IMG/VR virus record: IMGVR_UViG_3300043427_002327
Coordinates: 186,001 to 250,000 of that record
Strand: one strand, 5' to 3'
From: a virus
DNA length: 64,000 nt
Below the pieces are notes generated by a model. It searched no databases. It saw only the letters and a list, made by a program, of their open reading frames with translations, and was not told where the DNA came from. The position numbers and the translations under genes were made by a program. Positions 3,141-22,451 of the stretch are shown piece by piece. Each line of letters opens with the position of its first letter. The stretch's first letter is position 1.

Positions 3141-3198
3141 ATCATAACACAAAATCCACCACCCCACAAGAGGTAGTGTGACGGTTTCTCAAGTGTCC
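3141..3198 (-). promoter_or_regulatory. composite promoter: dyad operator plus -10 box
   Basis: On the minus strand an operator-like GGACACTT..AAACCGTCA element (3179-3198) is followed after 32 nt by TATGAT (3146-3141). The gap contains a CACTACC/GGTGGTG near-inverted repeat. It drives the Cys-rich gene starting at 3119. It is one of ten copies with nearly the same spacing. Confidence 0.6.
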
Positions 3199-3647
3199 TG
3201 TAGTTTAATGTATTTAAAATCTTGGTCATTAGTGCTCCAATGAATTTCTTTAATTGTAGGACAATTGGTAATGATGTAGTTGTAGCAAATTCTACAACAG
3301 AAACTATTTCTCAAATCATTACCACCGTGACCTCCCACCCTACAAATCACAAGTTTATTCCCAGGTTTTTGTGCTTTCAGGATACAATTGATTTCACAAT
3401 GAAGATATGTCTTGAGACGCAAACTCTTGTCCTTATACTTATTTGCCGCCATTACTGCAGCATAAAACTGTTGAGTATGCGTGTTCTCATAAGAATTAAT
3501 GCCCGAAGAAATCAATTTATTTCTTTTATCCAACAAAATTGCACCCATCTTTTTAGGTGCATTAGATGCTTTTGCAACTGCAATGACTTGATTGAGAATA
3601 GAATTCTTCAAATACGAAGGTTGTGCAATCAACGAGGCATCAATCAT
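3189..3647 (-). CDS. cytidine/deoxycytidylate deaminase-like protein
   Basis: The protein shows the zinc-deaminase layout: an HCEINCIL motif (H.E) near residue 85 and a later FCCRIC cluster (C..C) about 30 residues downstream. Together these would supply zinc ligands and the catalytic Glu. T4-like phages carry dCMP deaminases, which feed dUMP to thymidylate synthesis. This protein is short (152 aa), and the usual Pro before the first Cys is absent, so substrate is uncertain. The start is set at the ATG at 3647, downstream of a TACAAT -10 box. Confidence 0.6.
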   Translation of the reverse strand: MIDASLIAQPSYLKNSILNQVIAVAKASNAPKKMGAILLDKRNKLISSGINSYENTHTQQFYAAVMAANKYKDKSLRLKTYLHCEINCILKAQKPGNKLVICRVGGHGGNDLRNSFCCRICYNYIITNCPTIKEIHWSTNDQDFKYIKLQDT

Positions 3648-3671
3648 TATCAAGGAGTTATCAGTGGTATT

Positions 3672-3729
3672 ATTGTATCACAGGTTCCTTGGATACCTCA
3701 AGGTCATTGTGACGGTTTGGAGAGTGTCC
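3672..3729 (-). promoter_or_regulatory. composite promoter: dyad operator plus -10 box
   Basis: The operator-like element at 3710-3729 is followed, on the minus strand, by a 32-nt gap with a CCTTG...CAAGG hairpin and then TACAAT (3677-3672). It sits directly upstream of the deaminase-like gene. The operator overlaps the last codons of the upstream gene. Confidence 0.6.
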
Positions 3730-3964
3730 GGTAGTAATAAAACATTGCTTTAATTCTTAAAAGTATATTCTCATCACTTGCGGGGTTTTCCCTGATATGT
3801 TGAATGAAAGTTCTTGCGGTTACACTCTTTAGATTTTTAAATGAATAATCTAAAATAATATTCAGTTCTTCTGTTGTAGAAAACATAGAATAACTTTTTT
3901 GATATACATAAGACAACTCACTAAAAGATGGATTTGGATTATTAAAGATTTCGTGTAAGTTCAT
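3704..3964 (-). CDS. small LRV-like paralog (86 aa)
   Basis: This is one of three tandem paralogs. They share an N-terminal M(N/D)L.EI, a central S.EELN.ILDY-like helix and a C-terminal (N)PASDE..LL.IKA signature. The last motif resembles leucine-rich-repeat-variant (LRV) units, which are alpha-helical. Its C-terminus (RTLSKPSQ) is encoded by the operator sequence of the next promoter. Function unknown. Confidence 0.6.
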   Translation of the reverse strand: MNLHEIFNNPNPSFSELSYVYQKSYSMFSTTEELNIILDYSFKNLKSVTARTFIQHIRENPASDENILLRIKAMFYYYRTLSKPSQ

Positions 3965-4199
3965 TCACTTTAGTAAGTGCTTTGATTTTTAAAAGTAACT
4001 CCTCATCACTTGCGGGATTTCTTTTGAGGTTTTCTAACAATCCTTCTGTACTAATTAAACCTACTCTTTCATTGGAACCGCAAAAATTTAAAATAAGGTT
4101 TAATTCCTCTAGTGAAGACCCATAACGACTTCTATCTCCAATGAATATTGCTTCTTTAATTGATATGTATTCTTTAAGTAAGATTTCTTTTAAATCCAT
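3942..4199 (-). CDS. small LRV-like paralog (85 aa)
   Basis: The second of three tandem paralogs begins MDLKEILLKEYISIKEA and has SSLEELNLILNFCG and NPASDEELLLKIKAL. It overlaps the downstream copy by 23 nt. The copies are diverged at protein level, so the duplication is not recent. Function unknown. Confidence 0.6.
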   Translation of the reverse strand: MDLKEILLKEYISIKEAIFIGDRSRYGSSLEELNLILNFCGSNERVGLISTEGLLENLKRNPASDEELLLKIKALTKVNELTRNL

Positions 4200-4444
4200 C
4201 CTTCAATATCTCCTCTAATAAGTGATTTAATTTTCAAAAATAATTCTTCATCACATGCAGGATTTTCTTTTATGTTTTGGACAAGTAATGCTCCAAAGTA
4301 ACTCCATAATTTATCCGTAAAACAATAATCCACAAGAATATTAAGTTCTTCCAACGAAGACATTACGGAACTACTTTTGTCTAAAATATAAAGAAGTTCA
4401 TTTTCACTTGGATAAGGAATAGATATAATTTCTTGTAAATTCAT
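4190..4444 (-). CDS. small LRV-like paralog (84 aa)
   Basis: The third tandem paralog begins MNLQEIISIPYPSENEL and has SSLEELNILVDYCF and NPACDEELFLKIKSL. It overlaps the upstream larger LRV-like protein by 41 nt. Same helical signature as its neighbours; function unknown. Confidence 0.6.
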   Translation of the reverse strand: MNLQEIISIPYPSENELLYILDKSSSVMSSLEELNILVDYCFTDKLWSYFGALLVQNIKENPACDEELFLKIKSLIRGDIEGWI

Positions 4445-4856
4445 ATGCTTTAATCAATAAGGCAAGGTCTTCGGTGCAGTTAGGATGTTGGAGAATTCTA
4501 TTCTTAATAAGTAGTCTATCAACATTCCAATACACATCACTAATTTTAAATATAATATTTTCCAAGACTTTTACATTAGTGTTTCTATTGTTTGCAATCA
4601 AATAATACAAATGTGGGTCTGTATTAAGTTCATAAATTTCCTCTATGATTTTAGAAGATGCATTAGGATGCCTTGCAATAGAACTACGAATGTAAGATAA
4701 GTGATTTAATCTACTGAAGATTACTTCCAATTCTTTCGTTGATGAATTGGGATTGTGCGTAATGTCTAATGGACTTTTTAAGGAATAAGTAAAACCATAA
4801 TCATAATACCACAAGAACCAATAACACTGTTTAAGAAACTTGAGTATCTTATTCAT
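4404..4856 (-). CDS. LRV-repeat-like protein (150 aa)
   Basis: I place the start at 4856 (MNKILKFLKQCYWFL), which has a GGAGA ribosome-binding site and an ATGA overlap with the upstream stop. It contains at least four diverged repeats of the form (N/H)(P/R)N.....LE.I, for example NPNSSTKELEVI, HPNASSKIIEEI and HPNCTEDLALLIKA. That is the leucine-rich-repeat-variant pattern of short paired helices used for protein or nucleic-acid contacts. Target unknown. Confidence 0.6.
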   Translation of the reverse strand: MNKILKFLKQCYWFLWYYDYGFTYSLKSPLDITHNPNSSTKELEVIFSRLNHLSYIRSSIARHPNASSKIIEEIYELNTDPHLYYLIANNRNTNVKVLENIIFKISDVYWNVDRLLIKNRILQHPNCTEDLALLIKAYEFTRNYIYSLSK

Positions 4857-5002
4857 AAGGTCTCCACAAAATCCATTGCTTTTGTTCTTAAATAAACAGT
4901 TTCTTCTAAATCCGGATAACAATAAGAGAAATGTATTGCACGATTTCTATCATAGAAATTTTTAGAATATGCAAGTTTCAAAATCAATTCTTTAATAGTC
5001 AT
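4853..5002 (-). CDS. very small LRV-like protein (49 aa)
   Basis: Reading from ATG at 5002 to TGA at 4853-4855 gives 49 residues. It ends in DLEETVYLRTKAMDFVETL, matching the terminal helix of its neighbours (STEEI.L.AKAM.F.E.L). It is too short for many gene callers, but its overlaps with both neighbours and the shared motif support it. Confidence 0.6.
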   Translation of the reverse strand: MTIKELILKLAYSKNFYDRNRAIHFSYCYPDLEETVYLRTKAMDFVETL

Positions 5003-5210
5003 CTTCTATTACTAATTGAGACCTATATGAATAACTATCTACCCACCTCTTTGCCTTTACTGTTAATATGATTTCTTCTGTTGAATGTGGGTGGTTTTCT
5101 GCAATTTTCCTATTCAAATAAGAACTGGAGGTAGCAAGTTGCATCAACCATTTTCTTGTGCGTTCAAGTTTAACATAAGGAATTAAACTCTTAAACAAAT
5201 AGTAGGTCAT
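4992..5210 (-). CDS. small LRV-like protein (72 aa)
   Basis: A 72-residue basic protein with one clear repeat end (NHPHSTEEIILTVKAKRWVD). The N-terminal part (MTYYLFKSLIPYVKLERTRK) is helical. It is part of the same array of short paralogs; function unknown. Confidence 0.6.
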   Translation of the reverse strand: MTYYLFKSLIPYVKLERTRKWLMQLATSSSYLNRKIAENHPHSTEEIILTVKAKRWVDSYSYRSQLVIEDDY

Positions 5211-5368
5211 AAACTCTCCAAGAAGTTCATTGCTTTTGCTAGTAAAATGATTTCTTCTGTTGATGCATAATGATGTAGTGCATAATGTCTAAAATATGAG
5301 TTTTTAGATAAAGCACAATTTATTAAATCACTTTTTAACTTTATCCAATACAAGATTTCATTTTCCAT
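5207..5368 (-). CDS. very small LRV-like protein (53 aa)
   Basis: Reading from ATG at 5368 to TGA at 5207-5209 gives 53 residues with SYFRHYALHHYASTEEI followed by LLAKAMNFLESL. It is a close relative of the next gene (shared YA.HHY.STEEI and AKAM.F.E.L) and overlaps both neighbours. Function unknown. Confidence 0.6.
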   Translation of the reverse strand: MENEILYWIKLKSDLINCALSKNSYFRHYALHHYASTEEIILLAKAMNFLESL

Positions 5369-5520
5369 TATCTCACCAGACCTTCAATAAAATCCATTGC
5401 TTTTGCAGTGAGAACGATTTCTTCTGTTGATTTATAATGATGCTGTGCATAATACCTATAAAAATAGTGCTCACTTACAGCAAAACGAAGTAATAATATT
5501 AATTCTTCTGTATCTTCCAT
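5368..5520 (-). CDS. very small LRV-like protein (50 aa)
   Basis: Reading from ATG at 5520 to TAA at 5368-5370 gives 50 residues with YRYYAQHHYKSTEEI and LTAKAMDFIEGL. The similarity to the neighbouring 53-aa protein indicates tandem duplication. Its ATG overlaps the last base of the PcfJ-like gene's stop. Confidence 0.6.
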   Translation of the reverse strand: MEDTEELILLLRFAVSEHYFYRYYAQHHYKSTEEIVLTAKAMDFIEGLVR

Positions 5521-6380
5521 CACCCAACAACAGAAGAAATCAGTTCCTCTACCTCTTTGCGTTCTTCAACTGGAATTGAAGAGTTACCAATTCCCACGCA
5601 CTGTTTCACCTGAACCTGACCTTTCTTGAGTGCATTGTAGTCCAACTCAAAGGTATAGGTTGGTTTGTTCTCCTTCTCAATCAGGAAGATTGCACTGCGT
5701 TCTCCAAGGATTTTATCCTCATAAGATGCAACACAATTCCGCACTCTCTTACCCCAGAGTGTGAGTTCCAGAGTATCGTTAGGTTCATAGATTTTATAAG
5801 AGTTCTTCTCAATCGGTAGAGGAATGAACTCTTTCTTATGTTCCTTATTGGTTGTGGTAGAGACAATATAAAGATGAGACATATGGTCGTGGAACTCTTC
5901 CAACCTCCAACGACGAGGACGAGTGATGGTTTCTTTACGAGAAACCAGTTGAACCATCTGTTTGAAAGTATCTGCAATTATATTGTCTGTCTTCTGGAGA
6001 CCTTCCTTATCATAATAAGTTTGAACCATATGCAGGAAAGTCGTAGAGGTCATCTGGTCTTTCATCCAGTCCCTTACTTCTGGTTTTACACAGTTGTAGA
6101 GTTCATAAATTTCCAGGATTTTTTCGTAGGTCTGGAAATAATCTACTGGAACATCATTCCACACTTGATTTACAAATGCAATGTTATTGATATAATTGAC
6201 TGAAGTATAGAACGGCACAAGTTCATTGATTTTCTTGGAACCAAAATACTTCTTGAATGAAGGAGTGTTGAAAAAGTCCTGAATTTTATCAGTAATAGGT
6301 TCTTTTACATAAGTAAGAATTGCATCCAGATTGGTGTTAAAATCAACAGAAAGTTCAACAGGGGATTTAGGTGCGGTCAT
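5520..6380 (-). CDS. PcfJ-like protein (286 aa)
   Basis: The C-terminal third has the features of PcfJ-like proteins: a LWGKRVRNCVASYEDKI segment, then SAIFLIE, a strand pair (PTYTFELDY) and a Gln/Cys motif (QVKQCVGIGNS). The family is named after a gene of the enterococcal conjugative plasmid pCF10 and occurs on plasmids and phages; its biochemical role is not established. The N-terminal 190 residues are helical and unassigned. The gene has its own composite promoter and ends within the LRV-like array. Confidence 0.6.
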   Translation of the reverse strand: MTAPKSPVELSVDFNTNLDAILTYVKEPITDKIQDFFNTPSFKKYFGSKKINELVPFYTSVNYINNIAFVNQVWNDVPVDYFQTYEKILEIYELYNCVKPEVRDWMKDQMTSTTFLHMVQTYYDKEGLQKTDNIIADTFKQMVQLVSRKETITRPRRWRLEEFHDHMSHLYIVSTTTNKEHKKEFIPLPIEKNSYKIYEPNDTLELTLWGKRVRNCVASYEDKILGERSAIFLIEKENKPTYTFELDYNALKKGQVQVKQCVGIGNSSIPVEERKEVEELISSVVG

Positions 6381-6402
6381 AATAGTTGAATTACTTGGTA
6401 GT

Positions 6403-6460
6403 AGTTTAACAGAAAATCAGTGAGAAAGGGAAGGGTCTTGTGACGGTTTGGAAAGTGTCT
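6403..6460 (-). promoter_or_regulatory. composite promoter: dyad operator plus -10 box
   Basis: The operator-like element (6441-6460, GACACTTTCCAAACCGTCA on the minus strand) is followed after 32 nt by TAAACT (6408-6403), about 16 nt before a likely +1-to-ATG leader for the PcfJ-like gene. This copy shows no clear hairpin in the gap. Confidence 0.55.
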
Positions 6461-6471
6461 TATCGTCTAAA

Positions 6472-6858
6472 TCAACTGGGTTCTTCAAATGGATTCTTTA
6501 AGTAATCAAATGATGATTTTTTAGATAATTGCAAGCAATTCAAAAAATAAAAAGTATTTGGTAATAAGTTAGTAACACCATAATCATTTCTTGAAATAAA
6601 GGTCTCTGCTTTACGCAAGAGATGCAAATAATCTTTCTGTTCTTCTGTTGCGACAGTTTTTGCAATAATAAAATTAATTAGATTAGAATAACTGCAATCA
6701 TAATAATAAAAATTAAACTCATCTTCATCTCTGTAAGAATTTTTTGGTGAGTAATTAAATTTACCCAAATTATCAATGACCCACTGTATGTCTTTTGGGT
6801 CTTGGGTTTTATGCACTAATTTGAAGATGTTTTCAATTTTATGATTGGGATACAACAT
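6472..6858 (-). CDS. hypothetical helical protein (128 aa)
   Basis: A 128-residue protein beginning MLYPNHKIENIFKLVHK. A TEEQKDYLHLLRKAETF segment resembles the terminal helix of the LRV-like genes nearby, so it may be a distant member. It overlaps the upstream gene by 20 nt and has no strong ribosome-binding site. Function unknown. Confidence 0.55.
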   Translation of the reverse strand: MLYPNHKIENIFKLVHKTQDPKDIQWVIDNLGKFNYSPKNSYRDEDEFNFYYYDCSYSNLINFIIAKTVATEEQKDYLHLLRKAETFISRNDYGVTNLLPNTFYFLNCLQLSKKSSFDYLKNPFEEPS

Positions 6859-7141
6859 TGCAAAAATGATAAGATTTAAGAATTAGATGCATTTTGTCTT
6901 TAGTTTTGACTGATAGTTTCTCATATTGGTGGAGAGGTATAGAGTAAATAATACCCCTAATTAAATCCTTTTGAATGTATTGAAATATAAGATATGAAAA
7001 ACTAATGGAATAAAAGTCATTCTCATCTTCTTCAAATTCATCAATATGCTCCATAATTTCTTCTACTGCTTCTTTTAGACGAAATGTAGGGCATTGATTA
7101 AGAAGTTGAAACACCTCTTTGATTGTGGTGGGTTCAGTCAT
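6839..7141 (-). CDS. hypothetical helical protein (100 aa)
   Basis: A 100-residue acidic protein beginning MTEPTTIKEVFQLLNQC, probably all alpha. Its start overlaps the end of the LRV protein upstream by 8 nt, so they are likely co-translated. No motif recognised. Confidence 0.55.
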   Translation of the reverse strand: MTEPTTIKEVFQLLNQCPTFRLKEAVEEIMEHIDEFEEDENDFYSISFSYLIFQYIQKDLIRGIIYSIPLHQYEKLSVKTKDKMHLILKSYHFCNVVSQS

Positions 7142-7526
7142 TGCGAGTGTCTCCTATCCAGGAGTTAAATGATTTGGTTGTTCTATTCATCCATTTCATT
7201 GCTTTAATTGTCACCAAATCATCTTCCTTTGTATTTGGGTTTTTCCACACTTTAGACCTTACCATTGAAGTGTTGTCTGTGGATAACCGTTGAAGAATTC
7301 CTGAAGGACAATTAGGATTTTCTGCAACTACAGCACGAACAAAACAATCATTATCAAATGAGATTAAATTTAATGTCGTTTGAGACACATTTAGATGTTC
7401 TGCAATGTTTGCAAGAACAATCCAATCCTTAAATGCCCAATAGATTAGGTGAAGGTCTTCTGCAGATGTAGTTGGGTCTTCAGTGAGTTCCTTAAGTTCT
7501 TTAATTGTAAGTTCTTCAGGGTTCAT
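7134..7526 (-). CDS. LRV-repeat protein (130 aa)
   Basis: This is the clearest LRV protein of the array. Its repeats read FVRAVVAENPNCPSGIL..LS.D and MVRSKVWKNPNTKEDDL, the known pattern (VR..VA.NP.TP...L..L..D). The start at 7526 follows a TAGAAT -10 box with an extended TG. LRV proteins are alpha solenoids that usually bind partners rather than catalyse; the partner here is unknown. Confidence 0.7.
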   Translation of the reverse strand: MNPEELTIKELKELTEDPTTSAEDLHLIYWAFKDWIVLANIAEHLNVSQTTLNLISFDNDCFVRAVVAENPNCPSGILQRLSTDNTSMVRSKVWKNPNTKEDDLVTIKAMKWMNRTTKSFNSWIGDTRND

Positions 7527-7547
7527 TGCAAGTTCTTCAGTTGCATC

Positions 7548-7604
7548 ATTCTACCACAGAAACTTCATCAGTTGGGAAACTCAAAGTCAGTTGCGAAAGT
7601 GTCC
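7548..7604 (-). promoter_or_regulatory. composite promoter: dyad operator plus extended -10 box
   Basis: On the minus strand GGACACTTTCGCAACTGACT (7604-7585) is followed after 31 nt by TGGTAGAAT, an extended -10 (TAGAAT at 7553-7548). The operator lies inside the 3' end of the upstream gene. It drives the LRV gene starting at 7526. Confidence 0.6.
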
Positions 7605-8734: not shown

Positions 8735-8739
8735 TTTGG

Positions 8740-10080: not shown

Positions 10081-10104
10081 GGAGAGGTTCCGTGTCATGC
10101 ATTA

Positions 10105-10161
10105 ATTATACCAGTATGGAGGGGTTCTGGGAACTCCCGATGGTCGGTTTCTAAAGTGTCC
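10105..10161 (-). promoter_or_regulatory. composite promoter: dyad operator plus extended -10 TATAAT
   Basis: On the minus strand GGACACTTTAGAAACCGACC (10161-10142) is followed after 31 nt by TGGTATAAT, a perfect extended -10 box (10110-10105). The gap holds a GGGA...TCCC element. A weak -35 (TTCCCA) sits 17 nt upstream of the -10. It reads into the phosphoesterase gene. Confidence 0.7.
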
Positions 10162-10645: not shown

Positions 10646-11847
10646 TTGAGATTCCCCCACATCCAACGGTTTTCGTTTACTTTGGTTTGAGTATTGATAG
10701 AAGTTTTAATCTTTTCCACCAGCAAATTTTTGATGGGAACTCCATTACGAAGAGAGAACATAAAACTTTGGTGAGTTTTGGGAATATGGGAGTTTACAAG
10801 GATTGCAAACTCTTTTTGGCTCTGACCCCTTTCAAACTGCTTGTACAGATCATAAATGTCAGTTCCAACATCCTCCAAAGATGCCCAGAACGCAGTCTGG
10901 AACTTCTTGAGACGATCTACATCTTCTTCCGTAAGAAGAGGAATAAGATCATCTACATCATCATTAACAATGGTAGCAATTACATTTTTTTCCTGATTAA
11001 TCGCTTCCTTGGACTTATGGCGAAGAACATATTGATTCGCCTTAATTTTTACCATGTGACCATTTTCAAAGCGCAGAACGATTCCTTCAGAATCCTCCCA
11101 TTCGCGGATCTGATCCACAAACAAATGGATATTCTGAATTGCCAAACCATCTACTGCCTTAACAACAGGAATGTTCCAAGCAGTCGCATAACTAACCATA
11201 GTCTTATAGTTGACATAAGACCCATTGTAATTATAACGAATAGCCGTAAGAATCAGTTGATCTTCAGGATAATCCAGAACAATTCGGTTTTTGCGAGAGC
11301 ACCATTCAAAAATAGGAGTGGTTCCTTTTTGAATACACTTCATAATAAAAGTATGGTATGGTTTATGTCGTTCATTAGTAGGAATCCACTTATCAGAAAT
11401 AAACTTTTCTGCCTGCTCTGAAATTTCGGTTACACCCGCTTTCGTGCCAAGAAGAAAACCATCACCATAAGGAATCGGACGAATCATAGACCCATCCAAT
11501 TTCTCAAGAACCACATGAGGTTCATAGAGATTAATCTTATTAGTTTGAGTTTCCAGTTTTTCACCTACGTTGAAAAACTTGTGATACGGACGAGAAATGA
11601 GTTTTCCATTAGCATCAAAAATCAGACCACGGCACTCGCGTCGGATAGCATACTGTAGAGTACGCTCAGCACGCATTTTCGCAGAACCACCAGAACACTT
11701 TACCTCAGGAAAAGTATCCTCCAGATTTACTGCATAATTAATTACAGTGTACCAACCTTTATTAATAACAAGAAATTCTTCTCTATCTTTGATGTGAGGA
11801 AGAACATCATCAATGGTTTCAATTTGTGGGAAAGAGTAATTAAACAT
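10636..11847 (-). CDS. rnlA: T4 RNA ligase 1-type ATP-dependent RNA ligase
   Basis: The 403-aa protein has the nucleotidyltransferase motifs: EKLDGSM (motif I, Lys forms the AMP adduct), RECRGLIFD upstream, FEW (motif III), SEGIVLRF (motif IV) and VKIKANQYV (motif V). Rnl1 ligases repair tRNA anticodon-loop breaks made by host nucleases, working with Pnk. The start at 11847 (MFNYSFPQIETI) lies 15 nt below the predicted +1 from the TATGAT box; a longer reading to 11880 would begin at a TTG within the promoter. Confidence 0.9.
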   Translation of the reverse strand: MFNYSFPQIETIDDVLPHIKDREEFLVINKGWYTVINYAVNLEDTFPEVKCSGGSAKMRAERTLQYAIRRECRGLIFDANGKLISRPYHKFFNVGEKLETQTNKINLYEPHVVLEKLDGSMIRPIPYGDGFLLGTKAGVTEISEQAEKFISDKWIPTNERHKPYHTFIMKCIQKGTTPIFEWCSRKNRIVLDYPEDQLILTAIRYNYNGSYVNYKTMVSYATAWNIPVVKAVDGLAIQNIHLFVDQIREWEDSEGIVLRFENGHMVKIKANQYVLRHKSKEAINQEKNVIATIVNDDVDDLIPLLTEEDVDRLKKFQTAFWASLEDVGTDIYDLYKQFERGQSQKEFAILVNSHIPKTHQSFMFSLRNGVPIKNLLVEKIKTSINTQTKVNENRWMWGNLKWN

Positions 11848-11868
11848 AATCAAATCTCGTACATAACT

Positions 11869-11926
11869 ATCATACAACAAAAAAAGGGGGCGTGGATGCC
11901 CCCTTGTGCCAGTTCAGGGATTGGGT
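11869..11926 (-). promoter_or_regulatory. composite promoter overlapping a terminator
   Basis: A TATGAT box (11874-11869) lies 32 nt downstream of a weaker operator copy (11926-11907), whose best half reads TGCCAGTT on the plus strand. The gap holds the strong terminator of the upstream gene. It drives rnlA and pnk. Confidence 0.5.
11879..11903 (-). terminator. Rho-independent terminator after the basic protein gene
   Basis: The minus strand reads GGGGGC, a 6-nt loop, GCCCCC, then seven T. This is a strong GC stem with a T run. It ends transcription of the basic protein gene (11914-12279) and insulates rnlA. Confidence 0.85.
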
Positions 11927-13211: not shown

Positions 13212-13712
13212 TTATTTTTGACGGACTTGTTCTACTTGAGATTGTTTTCCGTCTAGATTATATTCTTTATTCAGTTCAGAATTCCAAATAGTTCCATGAA
13301 TAAATCCGGCACCACCAAGAAGAATCGCAGATGCCATAATAATTGCACCCTTTTTCACCTCATCTTCCGTTGGATCTTCATTATCCGCAAAATCTGAAAC
13401 AGTGACACCAGTAAATTTTTGTGCCAACCAAGTTCCACCAGATCCATAAATCAACATAAGAACCCAAGGAGTAAAATAAAGGAAAAGAGCTGCTACGCCA
13501 AGAAGTCCTACAAACCAAGTTCCACCCCCAGAGGGCATAGAAATACCATCTCCACTACCAGATCCACGAATTTGACGAAGATTGCGAATGTTCATTGGGG
13601 AATAAATGTGTTGAATATTCCCTTTTGCTTCACCAACTGAACCTCCTTCCACAGTAACAGTAAAATAATTACCAGGATTGTTCAGAAGAATTTCTGCTTG
13701 CCAGGTTGCCAT
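13212..13712 (-). CDS. membrane protein with two hydrophobic segments (166 aa)
   Basis: The start at 13712 (MATWQAEILLNNPGNYFTV) follows a TATGAT box at 13740-13745; the upstream extension would lie in promoter DNA. An N-terminal soluble beta-rich region of about 55 residues leads to a Gly-rich linker and two hydrophobic segments (WFVGLLGVAALFLYFTPWVL and AIIMASAILLGGAGFI). The type is familiar from cyanophages, with no known function. Confidence 0.65.
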   Translation of the reverse strand: MATWQAEILLNNPGNYFTVTVEGGSVGEAKGNIQHIYSPMNIRNLRQIRGSGSGDGISMPSGGGTWFVGLLGVAALFLYFTPWVLMLIYGSGGTWLAQKFTGVTVSDFADNEDPTEDEVKKGAIIMASAILLGGAGFIHGTIWNSELNKEYNLDGKQSQVEQVRQK

Positions 13713-13739
13713 GATCAATTTATGTTGAATTACCAATAT

Positions 13740-13796
13740 ATCATACAGCAAAATGGGCGCATGTGGTGACTTTTTGTGCCAGTTTTTGAACTGGAT
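13740..13796 (-). promoter_or_regulatory. composite promoter: palindromic operator plus -10 box
   Basis: The operator position (13777-13796) holds a perfect CCAGTT-N4-AACTGG inverted repeat, followed after 31 nt by TATGAT (13745-13740). This copy diverges in sequence but keeps dyad symmetry and spacing. It may also form the terminator of the upstream 54-aa gene. Confidence 0.6.
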
Positions 13797-14282: not shown

Positions 14283-14468
14283 CTAACTTTGGATTAGTTC
14301 TTGGTATTTTTCTTCGGGTAGCAAACAGAGTACACAAGAAGCAATCTCATAAATGTCTTCTTCTTCAAGACCATCTAGTGTCATTAGAGGTCCATCACCG
14401 AAAGAAATTGAAAATGAATATCCATCGGTGGGATTATACCCACCGCATGTTTGAATTCTACTTGCCAT
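14283..14468 (-). CDS. small hypothetical protein (61 aa)
   Basis: A 61-residue acidic protein beginning MASRIQTCGGYNPTDGYSF, with strands then a helix containing two Cys (ASCVLCLL). It overlaps the AbrB-like gene by 11 nt. Function unknown. Confidence 0.6.
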   Translation of the reverse strand: MASRIQTCGGYNPTDGYSFSISFGDGPLMTLDGLEEEDIYEIASCVLCLLPEEKYQELIQS

Positions 14469-15057
14469 TTACTTTTTTAAGTATAAAGGTGCCATCATTA
14501 TTATCAATCCAATCCACAGTATCACCCTCTTTTAGGTTTGCTTCTTTCAGCAATTCATCAGGAAACTGGATGAAATACTCACCATTTGTGCTGTCAACTT
14601 CTACTGGAATGACCCAACTTTTTTTATCAGTATTAATCATATCGGTAAGATCATTTCCTGCCGGATCAATCAAATCATTATTTTCTACCCAAAAATTGTA
14701 GTGATCAGGTTCAAATTGATTATCAGGAAAATTAGTGATTCTATCTAGAGTCAAATAGTCATTTGCCAGGTATTCTAGATCACTATGTCCCCAAGGAGGC
14801 ATAAAGTCATCCTTGTTTTGATTTCCTAATTCAACTACAGTTTTATTCCAAGCATCTTTAAATTTTTCATCAAATTCATCCAAATAATATTTAAGAAATT
14901 CATCAGCAGCATACATCAATTTTTCTGCCTTTTCTCTGTTTCCAGATCCTAGGGCATCAATTGCAGAATCTAGAATATCCCGAGCGGTACTCACTTTACA
15001 GACAGTGAGTTCCAGTTCGTTCATTACTTCCCAAACTTTTTCATAATTAAGAGTCAT
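14458..15057 (-). CDS. protein with C-terminal AbrB/SpoVT-like domain (199 aa)
   Basis: The start at 15057 (MTLNYEKVWEVMNEL) has a GGAGA site upstream. The first 130 residues are helical and acidic. The last 45 (YFIQFPDELLKEANLKEGD, then VDWIDNNDGTFILKKV) match the swapped-hairpin AbrB fold used by transition-state regulators and antitoxins. Phage versions may bind DNA; this one could be a regulator of the promoters nearby, but no target is shown. Confidence 0.6.
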   Translation of the reverse strand: MTLNYEKVWEVMNELELTVCKVSTARDILDSAIDALGSGNREKAEKLMYAADEFLKYYLDEFDEKFKDAWNKTVVELGNQNKDDFMPPWGHSDLEYLANDYLTLDRITNFPDNQFEPDHYNFWVENNDLIDPAGNDLTDMINTDKKSWVIPVEVDSTNGEYFIQFPDELLKEANLKEGDTVDWIDNNDGTFILKKVNGK

Positions 15058-15244
15058 GCTTTTCTCCATAAAGAATGTCAATACGATTGTCTACTGCTTC
15101 AATAGAAGACTGAAGAGTTTTGATAGATTGGGAAATTTCTTCCAATCTTGTTTGCATCATAAAAAATTCGATCCGATTTTCAATATAAGTAGGATCTTTT
15201 ATTTCCCGCGAAGAAGAAAATAAATTTTTAAAAAACTTCATCAT
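15047..15244 (-). CDS. small coiled-coil-like protein (65 aa)
   Basis: A 65-residue protein with a basic N-terminus (MMKFFKNLFSSSREIKD) and a heptad-rich C-terminal half (LEEISQSIKTLQSSIEAVDN). It overlaps both neighbours. Function unknown. Confidence 0.6.
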   Translation of the reverse strand: MMKFFKNLFSSSREIKDPTYIENRIEFFMMQTRLEEISQSIKTLQSSIEAVDNRIDILYGEKHDS

Positions 15245-15533
15245 TTGGAACAGAAATTTGTCTAAAAGGAATGTTTAGAGTGTCCGCATAAGATGCTGGA
15301 CAACCCTCAGTAGATCCATGAGCAGGAACCCAAGATCTCAAAAGTTTAGCGGCGCATTTTCCGCGATAAGAAAACGCTTCCGATCGTTTATTGAAGTATT
15401 CTTGGGATTTGAACGGAAAATTTTCTGCTTCTAGGAGAAGAGAGTATTCCGTTTGATTTACATATTTGAGGTATCTTTCCCGATTTTCGTCGGTAGGATT
15501 TTCAACGAGTGTTTTGATAATTTCCTCAATCAT
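15228..15533 (-). CDS. hypothetical protein (101 aa)
   Basis: A 101-residue protein beginning MIEEIIKTLVENPTDENRE. A basic region with two Cys (RGKCAAKLLRSW... GCPASY) follows. It has its own composite promoter with TATTAT about 21 nt upstream. Function unknown. Confidence 0.6.
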   Translation of the reverse strand: MIEEIIKTLVENPTDENRERYLKYVNQTEYSLLLEAENFPFKSQEYFNKRSEAFSYRGKCAAKLLRSWVPAHGSTEGCPASYADTLNIPFRQISVPNDEVF

Positions 15534-15553
15534 GGTTTTTTGTTAACAGATCA

Positions 15554-15610
15554 ATAATAGCAGAAACCCTCCGACCATTCAGCAGAGGGTGGACAGTTTT
15601 TGTATTGTCA
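15554..15610 (-). promoter_or_regulatory. composite promoter: operator, hairpin, extended -10
   Basis: On the minus strand TGACAATACAAAAACTGTCC (15610-15591) is followed by an ACCCTC...GAGGGT hairpin with TT after it, then an extended TGCTATTAT box (TATTAT at 15559-15554). The operator-to-box gap is 31 nt. The hairpin probably also terminates the upstream gene. Confidence 0.65.
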
Positions 15611-16593: not shown

Positions 16594-16594
16594 T

Positions 16595-17477: not shown

Positions 17478-17498
17478 GAATTCTCTCCTTAGTAGTAG

Positions 17499-17505
17499 TA
17501 TTTAG
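17499..17505 (-). promoter_or_regulatory. CTAAATA late-type promoter
   Basis: The minus strand reads TTCTAAATACTAC about 22 nt upstream of the gene starting at 17477, in the 30-nt gap after the phosphoesterase gene. Same heptamer as before structural genes. Confidence 0.45.
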
Positions 17506-17507
17506 AA

Positions 17508-18308
17508 TTAAATTTCAATCCCAAAATCAGCATTGAAATTAAGATTAAGTCCATGATTGTTGTATCCATTGTAATAACCCCTAGGATTGCAAATGATTCT
17601 ACATTCCCCAATAGTGTAGTCAAAACTCTCATGAGTATGACCATGACTCCAATATTTAATCTGAGGATGATCTAAAATGAGATCGTCAAGATCACTGACA
17701 TAGGCACCGTTTGCAATTCCACTATTTCGGTATTTTTCATGAACAGACTGATAGGAAGGTGCATGGTGAGTGAGAACCCAGATTTTATCATTTTTAAATT
17801 CTTCTAGTTTCTCTAGAAGATATTGCTTGGATTTTTTATGAAATCCTAGAGTATCATCAGGATTCATCTTACGAAACTTTGGAGTAATACGAATGATTTT
17901 ATAGTCATTCATACACTGAGAAGCTTCCATCATTTCCAGAGCATTCTCATTCCGAAAATCAGTCCAAAAAGTTGAACCAATAAAAATCCAGTCTTTAATT
18001 TTCACATAATCATTCTCAAGAAGGTGAACACCAACTGGCATCTGTTCTCTAAGAACATTCCAAGATCCTTCATAATTGTATCCGTATGCTTCATGATTGC
18101 CTGCAATATACAGGACATGCTCAAAGTTGTCGGAACACTTCTTTAGAAAGTCATCGTAGACCTTATGGAGTTTTCCATTGGTTTTAAAGTGGCGAGCACA
18201 AAGAATGTCACCACCAAGAATCAGAACGTCACCTTCACCTAGGTCTGGGACTCCATGACCATATTCACACATTTCCAGGTGAAGATCACTAACAACTTTA
18301 ACTTTCAT
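17508..18308 (-). CDS. calcineurin-like phosphoesterase (266 aa)
   Basis: All Metallophos motifs are clear: SDLHLE at the N-terminus, GGDI, AGNHEAYG, THHAPS and HGHTHES. These bind two metals and hydrolyse phosphodiesters or monoesters. The layout is like YkuE/Icc-type single-domain enzymes. It is a different subfamily from the phosphatase at 9.4-10.1 kb. Substrate unknown. Confidence 0.88.
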   Translation of the reverse strand: MKVKVVSDLHLEMCEYGHGVPDLGEGDVLILGGDILCARHFKTNGKLHKVYDDFLKKCSDNFEHVLYIAGNHEAYGYNYEGSWNVLREQMPVGVHLLENDYVKIKDWIFIGSTFWTDFRNENALEMMEASQCMNDYKIIRITPKFRKMNPDDTLGFHKKSKQYLLEKLEEFKNDKIWVLTHHAPSYQSVHEKYRNSGIANGAYVSDLDDLILDHPQIKYWSHGHTHESFDYTIGECRIICNPRGYYNGYNNHGLNLNFNADFGIEI

Positions 18309-18538
18309 TTCTCAACCTTCCAGTGTTCATTTCCTTCTTTTTGAATCCAAAAAAAGTATTTGCGATTTATGGACGCCAAGAAAAACATAGTTTCAGTTTC
18401 TTGTTCCACTTCGCAAGCATGAAAAGAATTCATTATATTTGCAAATCTATTCTTTGCTTTTGAACTTAGTGGAATCACATTAACAATCTTTCTTTTCACT
18501 TTACCAAGTTTCAGTGGTGTACTAGTGCAGTTTAGCAT
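18305..18538 (-). CDS. small hypothetical protein (77 aa)
   Basis: The start at 18538 (MLNCTSTPLKLGKVKRKIV) has a GGGGAT site and avoids the long overlap of an upstream Met. A basic strand region is followed by a helix and two strands (MFFLASINRKYFFWIQ). The ATG of the phosphoesterase overlaps its stop. Function unknown. Confidence 0.6.
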   Translation of the reverse strand: MLNCTSTPLKLGKVKRKIVNVIPLSSKAKNRFANIMNSFHACEVEQETETMFFLASINRKYFFWIQKEGNEHWKVEK

Positions 18539-18551
18539 GATCTCATCCCCA

Positions 18552-18734
18552 TCAGAGGAACTGAGTGACACCTTGCCCACTGTCCTCCCTGTGTGATTTG
18601 ATGAACGCATTTGCTTCATGAACAGTTCTAACATCCCCGATTTGCTGACCTCTATGGATAATCACAAGTCTCTTTCCCCAAGGAACTGCCATGTATCCAT
18701 CTGGAGTTTCAAACCCATCACTTTTTCTGGGCAT
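18552..18734 (-). CDS. small basic hypothetical protein (60 aa)
   Basis: A 60-residue protein beginning MPRKSDGFETPDGYMAVPWG with a later QIGDVRTVHEANAFIKSH. The strand-loop-helix pattern looks compact. It overlaps the upstream gene by 17 nt. Function unknown. Confidence 0.6.
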   Translation of the reverse strand: MPRKSDGFETPDGYMAVPWGKRLVIIHRGQQIGDVRTVHEANAFIKSHREDSGQGVTQFL

Positions 18735-19302
18735 AATATTCTAAATCTTCATTATATCTTTGTATAATCATGAGGCAAATGTTATCAAAATTTATAATAT
18801 TTTTTTCCAACTGCTCCAAAGAAGAATCAAAATTATTTGTCATTGATTCTATTAAATCAAAAGAAGGAATGCATGATGACAATAACGCCAGTGCAGATAT
18901 GATATAAGCAGCAGTATGATGACCAGGAGAAATATCTGGCATTTTAATAATCTGCTCAAAAGGATTTACTGGAGCGTCTTCATATAGTGGATGATTTTCC
19001 GAATACCAATAGATTGCCGCCAAACCACAAAGATACACACAGTCTTTGATTAAAAAATCTTTAGATTGAACATCCATTTTATCCAAATCTTCTTTACTAG
19101 GCATCATTCCATTTTTCAGTGCCGAAGATACTTCTTCTGGAACATCGCCAAATTCTTGATCTTCATCCATAACCCTAAAAAGATCATGCCGATTTGCCAA
19201 ACATTCCAAATATCTTAAAGCAAACTCTGTAGTTTGTTCGGTCTGCTCTTTTACTTCACTGATTCGTGTCTGTAGTGCTTTGATGTTAAATTTATCTTCC
19301 AT
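18718..19302 (-). CDS. hypothetical helical protein (194 aa)
   Basis: This acidic, mostly helical protein starts MEDKFNIKALQTRISEVKEQ. Residues 100-150 contain a hydrophobic region (KDCVYLCGLAAIYWYS and AAYIISALALLSSC) that could be buried or membrane-associated. It is encoded directly after the next gene with a 1-nt overlap, so the two may work together. Function unknown. Confidence 0.55.
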   Translation of the reverse strand: MEDKFNIKALQTRISEVKEQTEQTTEFALRYLECLANRHDLFRVMDEDQEFGDVPEEVSSALKNGMMPSKEDLDKMDVQSKDFLIKDCVYLCGLAAIYWYSENHPLYEDAPVNPFEQIIKMPDISPGHHTAAYIISALALLSSCIPSFDLIESMTNNFDSSLEQLEKNIINFDNICLMIIQRYNEDLEYYAQKK

Positions 19303-19871
19303 TATTCTACCAAAAATTGTTTTTCATAGTCCAAAATTTCTTGAGGAGTTTCAATATAATTACTCACATAATCTGTTGGAGTATTATACCAGTTTCTTCC
19401 GTAATTTCTTCTGAGCAATCTAATGTCAAGATGCTGATACTTTTTATCAGTGGGCACATATATCTTAAAATCGCCCGCCTTATTGGACGTTAATAAAGAA
19501 AGTCTTCGGTTTTCATCCGAAGTAATGTCTATGGTGGTACACGCTATGAGAAAAATCTCTTTGAACTTATCGTAGTCTGTCAGGTATATATCTGGATTAT
19601 CCATGATCATCCTAGCAATAAACTGAGGAGAGTAGCAGTGGTCTTTACAGATCGTCCATTTTGGGTTGCTTCTCTTCTCCAGTAAAGCGTTTTCTGTGAT
19701 GTACCCCGAGGGCATTGAGAGAGCGTGTACTAGGTCGTAGTACGGTCTCGTAACCCCTCGGAGCACATCCTTATCATTCGGTTTGGACTGCCATAGATCT
19801 AAACATGCTCGTAAGCAGTGAAAAGCAATTAAACAATAAATATCAATTCTGTATTGAGTTGTTAGTTTCAT
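19302..19871 (-). CDS. hypothetical protein (189 aa)
   Basis: The protein begins MKLTTQYRIDIYCLIAFHCL and has Trp/Tyr-rich regions (WYNTPTDYVSNYIETPQEIL at the C-terminus). Codon use in the first half (for example the CTCG and GAGC-rich stretch at 19.68-19.80 kb) is more GC-rich than its neighbours, a possible sign of separate origin. No family recognised. Confidence 0.55.
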   Translation of the reverse strand: MKLTTQYRIDIYCLIAFHCLRACLDLWQSKPNDKDVLRGVTRPYYDLVHALSMPSGYITENALLEKRSNPKWTICKDHCYSPQFIARMIMDNPDIYLTDYDKFKEIFLIACTTIDITSDENRRLSLLTSNKAGDFKIYVPTDKKYQHLDIRLLRRNYGRNWYNTPTDYVSNYIETPQEILDYEKQFLVE

Positions 19872-19895
19872 TCAATAAAATAAAATAATTTGCAA

Positions 19896-19912
19896 CCTAA
19901 TTTTATATTAGG
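19896..19912 (-). terminator. small hairpin at the end of the endonuclease gene
   Basis: CCTAAT, a 5-nt loop and ATTAGG form a perfect 6-bp stem over the stop codon, followed on the minus strand by an AT-rich tract (ATTATTTTATTTTATT). It could end the homing-endonuclease transcript, although the stem is AT-rich and weak. Confidence 0.4.
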
Positions 19913-20468
19913 ATCTACCAAGTCTCCACCCATCCCCAGGACACTCTACACTCATAGTTGTTTTTTGTCCATCTGTCCACCACACTTTTCCTTTTGTTGG
20001 ACTAGATTTTCCTTTTCTAGTTCTACTCATCTTTTGTCTAGCTTCAAAACTATGATTTTTTCCCGACCAATAATCACATTTTTTTCTATATTCGTCATTC
20101 ATTTTTTTACCTTTATTCCAAACATCATAACTTAAAGGTTTATTTTTTCTGGATTCTGAAAGTTTTCTTTTAGTTTCCAATGATCTTTTTCTGCCCAAAT
20201 GATTTGGTGGATGATCGCCACCATTAGTCATATTAATAAGAATTCCTGTGCCCAAATCTTTTCTTCCAAATAAAGAAATCATGTATATTTCATGATTAAA
20301 AGCATGTATTTCATCCTTAAAATATTTTAAAATAATTATATTTTTGGGATTATTTGGTCGTATATCCAAAGATCCTCTTTTATGTGATTGATATGCTCTA
20401 TTTTTAGATCCTTTTCCAATATAATAAGGAGTTTTATCTTCTCGCAGATATGCGTAGGTATAATACAT
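19908..20468 (-). CDS. GIY-YIG homing endonuclease (freestanding, Seg-like)
   Basis: The N-terminus has the catalytic module, YTYAYLREDKTPYYIGKGSK, with a GIY-YIG-type Tyr pair and a downstream Arg and Glu (FNHEIYMI). It is followed by two NUMOD3-like DNA-binding repeats (NHLGRKRSLETKRKLSE and SFEARQKMSRTRKGK) and a terminal WWTDG...PGDGW..GR motif seen in phage homing nucleases. It cuts DNA to promote its own spread. It sits between the DECH helicase and an unknown gene and is preceded by a regulatory hairpin. Confidence 0.9.
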   Translation of the reverse strand: MYYTYAYLREDKTPYYIGKGSKNRAYQSHKRGSLDIRPNNPKNIIILKYFKDEIHAFNHEIYMISLFGRKDLGTGILINMTNGGDHPPNHLGRKRSLETKRKLSESRKNKPLSYDVWNKGKKMNDEYRKKCDYWSGKNHSFEARQKMSRTRKGKSSPTKGKVWWTDGQKTTMSVECPGDGWRLGRS

Positions 20469-20470
20469 TT

Positions 20471-20531
20471 ATGTCTGGGGATAACTGCTGATATTTATAT
20501 GGGACTTACACAATTATATCTCCCCAGACAT
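20471..20531 (-). promoter_or_regulatory. hairpin with a late promoter in its loop, upstream of the endonuclease start
   Basis: Perfect 11-bp arms (ATGTCTGGGGA at 20471-20481 and TCCCCAGACAT at 20521-20531) enclose a 39-nt loop holding TATAAATA on the minus strand. The downstream arm covers the bases just before the endonuclease ATG. A read-through transcript would fold the arms and could hide the start; a late transcript starting in the loop would lack the first arm. The sequence logic matches T4 intron endonuclease control. Confidence 0.7.
20492..20499 (-). promoter_or_regulatory. TATAAATA late promoter for the homing endonuclease
   Basis: A perfect T4-type late consensus on the minus strand lies 24 nt upstream of the ATG, inside the loop of the hairpin described above. 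It would place the late +1 at about 20485. Confidence 0.65.
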
Positions 20532-20559
20532 TAATTGATGCCCACATCAATAATTTAGA

Positions 20560-21789
20560 TCATTTAATTACATCAGCAACAATATTTCCCCTAACGAACA
20601 CCTCATCAACAACATTTTCAACTCTTTTAGCAGTTGCAACACCTACTTTATTATTGTAAACTGGAATAACTATTTTACCAAAAGGTTTTAGATAATTATC
20701 AAAATCACCAGGAATAAGTTCGCCAGATTTGATACGAAGAGTATCTACAGGGTGAACTCTGATACAACGACCAATACTTTGAACAGTTGAAACAAAATTT
20801 TGCTGCCGCAAAAAAATGCATGATTGAATACCAGGAACGCTGATTCCCTCAGTCAAAATCCCAATATGAAGAACAACAAATTTTCTATTAGGATCAGAAC
20901 CATAATTATTCAGGGTTTCTAAAAATTCTCTACGCGAAACTTTACGATTATTAATGTGAGCTCCCCAACGGCTAGTAATATGCATAACATCATAACCATT
21001 CTCTCGCATTTCTTCCAGGAAGGAAGTCATGGCAAACATTGCCATCATAACCCTGGTACTGGGAGCGACAATCAGAACTTTATCCATTTGTTCTTCATTG
21101 AAGATAGTATCACAGAGAGTATAGAAGTCTCGCTCAGCAGCATTGTTCTTGTCACGATAAGATCCAATTTCCATAACAGAAGTCTTCGGAGGAAGAATGC
21201 TACCGTTCTTGAGAAGTTCTGGTGCGCTAACATTATGAATCTTGCTACCAAACACTTCAGCATCGTTGTTTCCGGGTTTGGAAGCAACCTGACTGAACTT
21301 AGGAGTTGCAGTCATAGAATAGAAGTGATTGGACATCGCACTGAGATCCTTGACAGAATCAAAGAACCGACGATTAACAGCATTGTGACACTCATCAAGA
21401 TACACAGTATCAATCTCAATCTCTGCCTTGACGATTTTATCAAGAGAGTGGTAAGTAGTGAAGATAAGTTTGTTACCTTCTGTAGTCTCATGCCAATAGG
21501 CAAGTTCTAGAAAATCTTTGATGCGAGTGTGCTTGGTTTCACCACTATGTACATGAGCAACGTGAACACCACTAATGAGCGTCTCAAACTCATGAGACAG
21601 TTGTTGACAAAGAAGAATCTTCGGTGCAACAACTACAATGGTTTTGTTCTGACCTTGCTCAAAGCGATACTTCGCATCAGCAATCATCATGATGGTCTTA
21701 CCCGCACTCGTAGGAGCGACTGTAAGCATCATGGAATGCTCACGCATCAGAGAAAAAACTTCTTCTTGTTGGGGACGGAGTTCAATCAT
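20560..21789 (-). CDS. SF2 DNA/RNA helicase (DECH box), UvsW/ResIII-like
   Basis: Motifs are in order: APTSAGKT (Walker A), VYLDECHN (Walker B, DECH), SMTATPK (motif III), LTEGISVPG (motif V) and QSIGRCIRV (motif VI). They define an ATP-driven SF2 helicase like UvsW or type III restriction helicases. In T4, UvsW remodels recombination and replication intermediates. At 409 aa it is shorter than T4 UvsW and lacks an obvious N-terminal extension. It has its own composite promoter. Confidence 0.88.
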   Translation of the reverse strand: MIELRPQQEEVFSLMREHSMMLTVAPTSAGKTIMMIADAKYRFEQGQNKTIVVVAPKILLCQQLSHEFETLISGVHVAHVHSGETKHTRIKDFLELAYWHETTEGNKLIFTTYHSLDKIVKAEIEIDTVYLDECHNAVNRRFFDSVKDLSAMSNHFYSMTATPKFSQVASKPGNNDAEVFGSKIHNVSAPELLKNGSILPPKTSVMEIGSYRDKNNAAERDFYTLCDTIFNEEQMDKVLIVAPSTRVMMAMFAMTSFLEEMRENGYDVMHITSRWGAHINNRKVSRREFLETLNNYGSDPNRKFVVLHIGILTEGISVPGIQSCIFLRQQNFVSTVQSIGRCIRVHPVDTLRIKSGELIPGDFDNYLKPFGKIVIPVYNNKVGVATAKRVENVVDEVFVRGNIVADVIK

Positions 21790-21812
21790 GGCGAATGGTT
21801 TTCTATGAGGTT

Positions 21813-21869
21813 ATTGTACAGCAAAAAAAGCCTCTACAAGAACCAGAGTGGACAGTCTTTAAAGTGTCC
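21813..21869 (-). promoter_or_regulatory. composite promoter with near-perfect palindromic operator
   Basis: This is the best-formed operator: GGACACTTTAAAGACTGTCC (21869-21850), followed after 31 nt by TACAAT (21818-21813). The gap has a short CTCT...AGAG stem and a T7 run that could end the upstream transcript. It drives the helicase gene. Confidence 0.7.
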
Positions 21870-21929
21870 TGATTCTTATAGAAGCTTATAACTTGTCTTG
21901 AAGCGGCACAAACCTATCCTAGGTATGTT

Positions 21930-22361
21930 TTAGATTCTTGTCAAGCCCTTGTGTTTTAGGTAATCTTGGTATAGGATTGACTCAAAATAATGTGCCTCAA
22001 TCTCATGAGGTTGTTCCCAATAATCCAAATCATCAACACACTCCCCATCAAAATATCTTTTGGATGATCGGTATTTCATCTCCCCTTTCACCCATTGATA
22101 CATATGCCAGAGTTCATGGCAAAGAACCTTAATGTAATCTTTTTTACTTAGGTAAGTGTTTATTTCAATTAAAAAACTTCTTGGTCTATAGGTTTCTCCG
22201 GATATGTCACAATATCCGATTACTTTTTCTTTATTGAGACCACGATGGAGAACTTCAATCTCTAACTTATATCTTGGGAGGTATTCGGACACGAACCAAC
22301 AAACAACATCTTTACATAGACGCTTTGAGTATCCGTATCCAGTTGTTTCAAGGATGATCAT
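21930..22361 (-). CDS. SprT-like zinc metallopeptidase (143 aa)
   Basis: The HELWH motif at about residue 82 (VLCHELWHMYQWVKG) gives the HExxH zinc site, and a later conserved E with AHYFE (about residue 125) fits the third ligand position of the SprT family. In eukaryotes Spartan cleaves DNA-protein crosslinks; the bacterial role is not known. It sits upstream of the helicase with its own composite promoter. Confidence 0.7.
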   Translation of the reverse strand: MIILETTGYGYSKRLCKDVVCWFVSEYLPRYKLEIEVLHRGLNKEKVIGYCDISGETYRPRSFLIEINTYLSKKDYIKVLCHELWHMYQWVKGEMKYRSSKRYFDGECVDDLDYWEQPHEIEAHYFESILYQDYLKHKGLTRI

Positions 22362-22393
22362 TGGAGGTCATATGGGCACTAGGATGCCTTCAT

Positions 22394-22451
22394 AGCATAA
22401 GGCACCTCACAGGCGCTCCTGGAGGTGCCTCAGACGGTTTCTGATCCGTCC
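22394..22451 (-). promoter_or_regulatory. composite promoter: operator, strong hairpin, -10 TATGCT
   Basis: The operator copy (22432-22451) carries the shared GACGGTTT half-site and itself has a GACGG...CCGTC stem. It is followed by the hairpin at 22400-22430 and then TATGCT (22399-22394), with a 32-nt gap. It drives the SprT-like gene. Confidence 0.6.
22400..22430 (-). terminator. strong two-part hairpin after the GT17/2OG gene
   Basis: A perfect 9-bp stem (AGGCACCTC and GAGGTGCCT) encloses an inner CAGG/CCTG stem. The RNA following is not T-rich, so it is either a weak intrinsic terminator for the large gene upstream or a structural part of the composite promoter. Confidence 0.6.

Follow-up and report, generated by a model that had tools for sequence, protein, structure and literature searches.

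Ten genes on one strand of a viral DNA stretch are each preceded by a 20-bp inverted repeat (the dyad) at a near-constant distance from a TATAAT-like -10 box, which raises the question of what this repeat does and what reads it. The stretch, referred to here as the window, comprises 64,000 nucleotides and corresponds to bases 186001-250000 of a 258-kb virus record (IMGVR_UViG_3300043427_002327). The phage can be placed among the T4-like cyanophages because its UvsW-like helicase is 47% identical to the S-SRM01 protein and 46% identical to the S-SKS1 protein. An earlier, sequence-only reading had described the ten elements as combined operators, promoters and terminators for a phage transcription factor. 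The obtained results suggest that the dyad and the -10 box define a promoter class of T4-like cyanophages, in which a dimeric protein bound to the operator probably activates the host RNA polymerase at the TATAAT box.

Architecture of the dyad promoters

All ten elements of the sequence-only reading were found again, on the minus strand of the window, and each has the same layout, in which a 20-bp dyad is followed after 31 or 32 nt by a TATAAT-like box, then by a predicted transcription start (+1) on a purine and finally by an ATG. The distance from the dyad to the -10 box, claimed to be constant at 30-32 nt, was measured as 31 or 32 nt in ten of ten sites. The predicted +1 was A or G in all ten, and an ATG lay 14-26 nt downstream of it in every case. 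As had also been claimed, the structural half showed no dyad with a properly placed -10 box. The consensus as originally written matched exactly at 3179 only (one match in the window; none in 100 shuffles).

A matrix built from the ten window sites gave scores of at least 18.5 bits for nine of them, and the best non-site in the 64-kb window reached 12.8 bits when other-strand matches of the same places were set aside. In a leave-one-out analysis, in which ranks count the other sites, eight sites ranked 4 to 10 in the window, the site at 13777 ranked 13 and the one at 11907 ranked 78 (5.8 bits). An independent matrix, for which only S-SRM01 and S-CRM01 supplied sites (43 in all), was applied with a score cut of 10. 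It recovered eight of the ten window sites at 12.2-23.9 bits and the site at 7585 at 11.3 bits (14.3 on the other strand). Three non-sites also passed the cut: 26385, which scored 16.4 bits and has no -10 box in place; 18566, with 12.8 and 10.8 bits on its two strands; and 12554, at 10.1 bits. The window held 14 strand matches of 12 bits or more to this matrix, whereas 100 shuffled windows averaged 1.35 and never exceeded 6.

An iterated matrix was then trained on approximately 138 kb of the window phage, 49.5 kb of S-SRM01 and 100 kb of S-CRM01; dyad counts in these three phages are circular, while the coupling to the -10 box and the results for other phages are not. The matrix identified 120 sites of at least 11.5 bits in the training phages, with the consensus TG[CA]CA[CG]TT-N4-AACTG[GT]CACA followed after 31-32 nt by TATAAT. 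The sequence-only reading had proposed that the spacing be compared with shuffled DNA. The best TATAAT-like hexamer lay 28-34 nt downstream in 62 of the 80 strongest sites, against 11.1 expected from base-shuffled spacers; these shuffles, like those of the UvsW upstream regions below, preserve base composition only. Where a -10 box was scored (70 sites), it stood at 31 or 32 nt in 57, and a purine was present at the predicted +1, a position unused in finding the sites, in 67. A -35 TTG at 17 nt was detected in just 15 of the 80 strongest sites, in some copies within the hairpin of the spacer. The dyad, of 20 bp and up to 24 bp, spans about -63 to -44, with its centre near -54.

The individual sites differ mainly in their dyad sequence and spacer. 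The dyad at 3179..3198 (GGACACTTGAGAAACCGTCA) is followed by TATGAT at 3141-3146, a predicted +1 at 3134 and an ATG at 3119, with a hairpin in the spacer. At 3710..3729 (GGACACTCTCCAAACCGTCA), the box TACAAT (3672-3677) and +1 at 3665 precede the ATG at 3647 of a deaminase-like gene, whose PF00383 score is slightly under the curated cut-off. Two sites without a spacer hairpin follow, namely 6441..6460 (AGACACTTTCCAAACCGTCA; TAAACT at 6403-6408, +1 at 6396, ATG of a PcfJ-like gene at 6380) and 7585..7604 (GGACACTTTCGCAACTGACT; TAGAAT at 7548-7553, +1 at 7541, ATG at 7526). The dyad at 10142..10161 (GGACACTTTAGAAACCGACC) precedes a metallophosphatase gene, with TATAAT at 10105-10110 and +1 at 10098; its ATG is at 10098 or 10080, the additional in-frame ATG falling exactly on the predicted +1. 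The dyad at 11907..11926 (ACCCAATCCCTGAACTGGCA), upstream of a T4 RNA ligase 1-like gene (TATGAT at 11869-11874, +1 at 11862, ATG at 11847), is weak; its right half alone is good, the architecture is kept and the spacer holds a terminator-like hairpin with a T run. The site at 13777..13796 (ATCCAGTTCAAAAACTGGCA; TATGAT at 13740-13745, +1 at 13733, ATG at 13712) has no spacer hairpin, and that at 15591..15610 (TGACAATACAAAAACTGTCC; TATTAT at 15554-15559, +1 at 15547, ATG at 15533) has one. The UvsW-like helicase gene is preceded by the dyad at 21850..21869 (GGACACTTTAAAGACTGTCC), with TACAAT at 21813-21818, +1 at 21806 and the ATG at 21789. A strong spacer hairpin is found at the last site, 22432..22451 (GGACGGATCAGAAACCGTCT; TATGCT at 22394-22399, +1 at 22387, ATG at 22361).

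Further dyads are present beyond the window, elsewhere in the same phage genome. Two dyad-like elements also stand head to head on L166, at 19936 on the plus strand and 19968 on the minus strand (approximately G000:183936-183987), each in the promoter zone of the other.

Occurrence in T4-like cyanophages

Dyads with a -10 box in place were counted in other phages and compared with the mean of 20 column-permuted matrices, of which the largest single permutation gave 3. Outside the training set, the counts were 20 versus 0.65 in S-PM2, 18 versus 0.45 in P-SSM2, 11 versus 0.15 in P-TIM40, 10 versus 0.3 in S-RIM4, 8 versus 0.35 in P-HM2 (bases up to 180000 of 183806) and 6 versus 0.3 in Syn9. The module exceeded the control in all ten T4-like cyanophages scanned by matrix, the window phage included; T4 (0 versus 0.2) and HTVC008M (0 versus 0.25) yielded no dyad with a -10 box in the same scan. 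The matrix scan of the window and related cyanophages, a check that the sequence-only reading had itself suggested, recovered sites above shuffled or permuted controls.

A scan with the consensus pattern was positive in S-SKS1 (22 versus 5 control strand matches) and P-SSM5 (12 versus 3), and showed no enrichment in Ma-LMM01 (1 versus 1) or P-SSP7 (0 versus 3). RB49, KVP40 and S-TIM5 were at background for the dyad. A stricter pattern matched 10 places in the 49.5 kb of S-SRM01 and 5 in S-PM2, with none in the controls; it gave no match in the window itself, S-CREM1 or T4, and the window dyads mostly begin with G or A. Many sites in S-PM2, Syn9 and S-SRM01 precede small genes without a known function, and they often overlap the stop codon of the gene upstream. 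Scattered sites occur elsewhere in S-PM2, P-TIM40 and others, a few of them inside genes. The window phage shows little DNA similarity to named phages: there is one match of 232 bases with S-CREM1, and the tail-fibre gene contains repeats that also occur in S-CRM01 and in phages of other hosts.

The UvsW-like DEAD/DEAH helicase gene (20560..21789, minus strand) keeps its promoter dyad in many orthologs, and S-SRM01 and S-SKS1 carry the element at the same gene. Of 83 sequences upstream of UvsW orthologs, 76 were distinct, that of the window phage among them. A dyad of at least 12 bits was present in 46 of the 76, compared with 0.5% of shuffles, and in all 46 the dyad ends 56-68 nt upstream of the gene and a -10 box stands at 29-34 nt. 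In many copies, including those of the UvsW orthologs, the half-sites are conserved while the spacer diverges, as is expected for a protein site. Among the orthologs lacking the dyad, seven (L526, L527, L528, L532, L548, L555 and L562) show by eye a CACCTC-AAAGTGTCC-like sequence, or part of it, near the start, which is perhaps another promoter or operator type.

The dyad as a DNA site and its probable mode of action

Inverted repeats can act as DNA sites or as RNA stems, and the pairing of the half-sites was therefore analysed in 73 sites from three phages. No covariation beyond chance was detected among the ten dyad pairs. Positions 3/18 combine freely (AT 22, AG 20, CT 12, CG 12), and at positions 6/15 C opposite C predominates (38 of the 73 sites). 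Of 14 pairs tested, one just outside the dyad (-2/23) exceeded chance slightly (z 1.9). Because the half-sites do not covary, a selected RNA stem is rejected, and the dyad is a DNA site. A role as an RNA hairpin in the 3' untranslated region of the upstream gene, in stability, processing or as part of a terminator, would agree with the S-SRM01 dyads that overlap or abut the upstream stop codon (several, compared by hand) and with the hairpin that follows in many copies. The independent half-sites, including the C/C combination, and a spacing locked to the -10 box of the next gene make this role very improbable.

The spacer itself was also folded. In the same 73 sites, a hairpin with a folding free energy (dG) of -9 or lower occurred in 27, against 8.1% of shuffles, and a dG of -6 or lower in 37, against 30% of shuffles, the mean being -7.1 versus -4.4. 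In 9 of the 73, a hairpin of -6 or better was accompanied by six or more T among the final 11 nt. Within the window, four of ten spacers (3179, 11907, 15591 and 22432) folded clearly better than shuffles, which contradicts the claim of a hairpin in most gaps. Since only these four and part of the 73 spacers fold strongly, the terminator is optional in the module. Of the three functions originally combined in the element, operator and promoter are upheld by the dyad centre near -54, the 31-32 nt distance, the purine at +1 and the conservation; termination would hold for part of the sites only, the four of the window and the 27 of 73. The operator-promoter reading of these sequences is, as it stands, well supported.

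Under the reading we favour, the operator would consist of the two inverted half-sites at about -63 to -44, to which a dimeric protein most likely binds. The bound protein would contact the host RNA polymerase and lead to initiation at the TATAAT box, mostly without a good -35 element. In about one third of the copies, the spacer hairpin, sometimes with a T run, could end the transcript of the upstream gene. The near-rigid -10 distance, the centre near -54, the absent or weak -35 element and the independent half-sites all fit a dimeric activator. We infer protein binding, activation over repression, early timing and termination from the sequence pattern, and the genes are presumed to be early from their position and annotation.

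In the main rival explanation, a phage repressor binds the dyad as its operator and turns the promoters off once the first minutes have passed. Inverted repeats of approximately 20 bp are equally typical of repressors and activators; dyads before many genes could serve a common shut-off, and the ten window sites with more elsewhere in the genome fit a global repressor. The site, however, ends approximately 44 nt upstream of +1, farther away than repressors usually bind, the near-rigid distance to the -10 box (31-32 nt in 57 of 70) would be needless for a repressor, and the -35 TTG is missing in most sites, so that we regard repression as unlikely. The elements could also be plain sigma-70 promoter-terminator cassettes, of the kind reportedly described by Arbiol 2010 and Comeau 2014 as promoter early stem-loops (PeSLs), with the dyad a mark of past recombination that has no regulatory role. 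PeSLs likewise place a compact stem-loop and an early promoter between variable-region genes of T4-type phages; they differ from the dyad module, which has an extra 20-bp dyad upstream of the promoter and a hairpin in only part of its copies. Near-identical copies that recur between S-PM2 and S-SRM01 would suit this explanation, as would the composite terminator-promoter cassettes of T4-type phages described in passages of PMC4503421. Half-sites that are kept while the spacer diverges are explained by selection and not by recombination alone, and the hairpin is absent in many copies; a purely recombinational origin appears highly unlikely.

Candidate readers and relation to known systems

The reader of the dyad may be encoded by the phage or by the host. 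Synechococcus or Prochlorococcus are the hosts of the named dyad phages, and the dyad is absent from HTVC008M, a Pelagibacter phage of the same family; both facts would be consistent with a host cyanobacterial regulator borrowed by the phage. Immediate-early use would require a protein already present, and no universal phage regulator turned up. On the other side, a scan of 101 genomes from the family of Cyanobium sp. CH-040, which we take to be Cyanobiaceae, gave 6 places (8 strand matches) in four genomes, against 10 control strand matches, and hence no enrichment with the stricter pattern, which also gives none in the window and S-CREM1. A strict composite scan of a genome collection yielded 39 loci, against approximately 30 estimated by chance from our own arithmetic. 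Eleven of the 39 are cyanobacterial (ten from other groups and one Cyanobium), which looks above the cyanobacterial share of the collection, a share that was not measured. These eleven represent approximately six different sequences: one is shared by three Nostoc-type loci, another by three Laspinema/Oscillatoria loci, and two Moorena loci are identical. By eye they are unlike the promoters described here, and they leave some room for a host reader.

NtcA promoters also carry a dimeric activator site upstream of a -10 box and lack a -35 element. They differ from the dyad module in sequence and in position, the NtcA site standing at about -41. The NtcA consensus is given as GTA-N8-TAC in passages of PMC3037559, and none of its 14 window matches falls on a dyad; the dyad is not an NtcA site. 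A host regulon is not supported, with the family scan at control level and the cyanobacterial loci dissimilar, and we consider a borrowed host regulator quite unlikely. Because the dyad is not enriched in the 101 host-family genomes, a phage protein appears the likelier reader than a host regulator. The proposal of a phage transcription factor gains from this result and loses from the fact that no phage DNA-binding protein common to all dyad phages was found. In the genome collection, the loci L270 and L283, both from one bin named 'Flavobacteriales bacterium TMED113', look like misbinned cyanophage contigs because several cyanophage-type dyads share the same small contigs.

Several phage proteins were considered as the reader. 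A small helix-turn-helix (HTH)-like protein (S-PM2 93944-94144; phrog_1920/1308) had matches in 436 phage records at E <= 0.1, all of them cyanophage-named, and a strongly conserved copy of 59 amino acids is encoded in the window phage outside the window (L170 3439-3618, minus strand). Its AlphaFold model has three helices with a mean predicted local distance difference test score (pLDDT) of 90, and its structural matches are weak and generic for HTH proteins (Foldseek best E 0.13; best Z 5.8, root-mean-square deviation 6.2 over 58 aligned residues). In 80 loci around this protein, a dyad with a -10 box occurred within the 1.5-kb flanks at two, one of them upstream on its strand. An AbrB/MazE-like gene in the window (14458-15081, minus strand) encodes a C-terminal PF04014 domain (E 3.5e-5, 24.1 bits, just under the curated cut-off of 24.7) and a separate N-terminal domain (phrog_7295); its relatives occur in 48 cyanophage records and it was rejected as not universal.

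The open reading frames (ORFs) of S-PM2 were also compared by blastp with six other dyad phages, HTVC008M and T4, a comparison that misses diverged genes. For 27 ORFs, matches were obtained in at least five of these six dyad phages, with HTVC008M and T4 giving no match. Proteins of unknown function present in all six were a 47-amino-acid basic protein (phrog_516), a DUF3110 protein and phrog_481. The first of these, at S-PM2 26078-26221, is very basic and occurs in all seven dyad phages compared, without a blastp match in HTVC008M or T4. In a more specific proposal, the reader is a phage protein, entering along with the DNA or synthesised within the first minutes, and forms part of a dedicated early-region activator system without a T4 counterpart; this is possible, if doubtful.

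Several observations weigh against activation by a dimeric protein at a shared operator. If the promoters act at time zero, an activator made by the phage could not be present in time, except if the virion brought it in. No evident regulator was present among the 27 dyad-phage-specific ORFs, of which five were scanned against Pfam and PHROGs and the rest assessed on their sequence, and the HTH-like protein fails as a universal reader, being undetected in the dyad-bearing P-TIM40 and P-HM2. The supply of sites is thin in S-CREM1 (4 dyads with a -10 box versus 0.25), where matches to the first matrix within an 18-kb stretch reached no more than 11.7 bits, and S-SM1, scanned with the consensus pattern only, did not exceed the control (6 versus 6). 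Upstream of UvsW, nine of the 76 regions carry only a weak dyad (6.9-11.7 bits) with the -10 box in place, and 21 have no dyad. In the window, the site at 22432 fell below the cut of 10 with the matrix from S-SRM01 and S-CRM01, and the spacer hairpin is absent or weak in six of ten sites.

Doron et al. 2016 reportedly described, for the early genes of Syn9 and P-TIM40, a 'novel regulatory element' that is conserved and abundant among T4-like cyanophages. The dyad module is probably this element, because it occurs in both Syn9 and P-TIM40, members of the same phage group. The dyad, its spacing, the +1 and the spacer hairpin were measured here in the window phage. The dyad motif was not recognised as printed in the literature found, where its letters were searched only in part, and we do not claim that it is unpublished.

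The MotA box of T4 stands near -30 and is not a dyad, whereas the dyad described here ends near -44. An activator box at about -30 replacing the -35 element was thus not encountered, and no scan for the MotA sequence was made. The dyad module resembles T4 middle promoters in that an activator-type site is combined with a -10 box and the -35 element is dispensable; passages of PMC5780444 describe these promoters as a MotA box plus a -10 box. A 2010 review (PMC2984593) states that cyanomyoviruses lack alt, modA, modB, motA and asiA, calls their early and middle control unclear and places sigma-70-like motifs in front of the early homologues of S-PM2 and Syn9. A division into early, middle and late classes was later reported for P-HM2, P-SSM2, P-TIM40 and Syn9 (PMC5082946 and PMC7238727).

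A longer related palindrome, AGTGGACANTTnnnnAANTGTCCACT, was observed at two to four copies per contig (L010 4419 and 5845; L015 1564, 1891 and 2322; L025 587, 6869, 7300 and 7624). Each copy is followed by TTGACA-like and CATAAT-like boxes at a larger spacing than in the window dyad promoters, and these palindromes possibly belong to another phage group with its own regulator.

A precise operator of nearly constant geometry, present in ten T4-like cyanophages by matrix and not enriched in the 101 host-family genomes, makes the missing factor directly findable, and a biotinylated dyad can serve as bait. The conserved +1 and -10 box further give predictions of gene starts and operons for many metagenomic cyanophage contigs.

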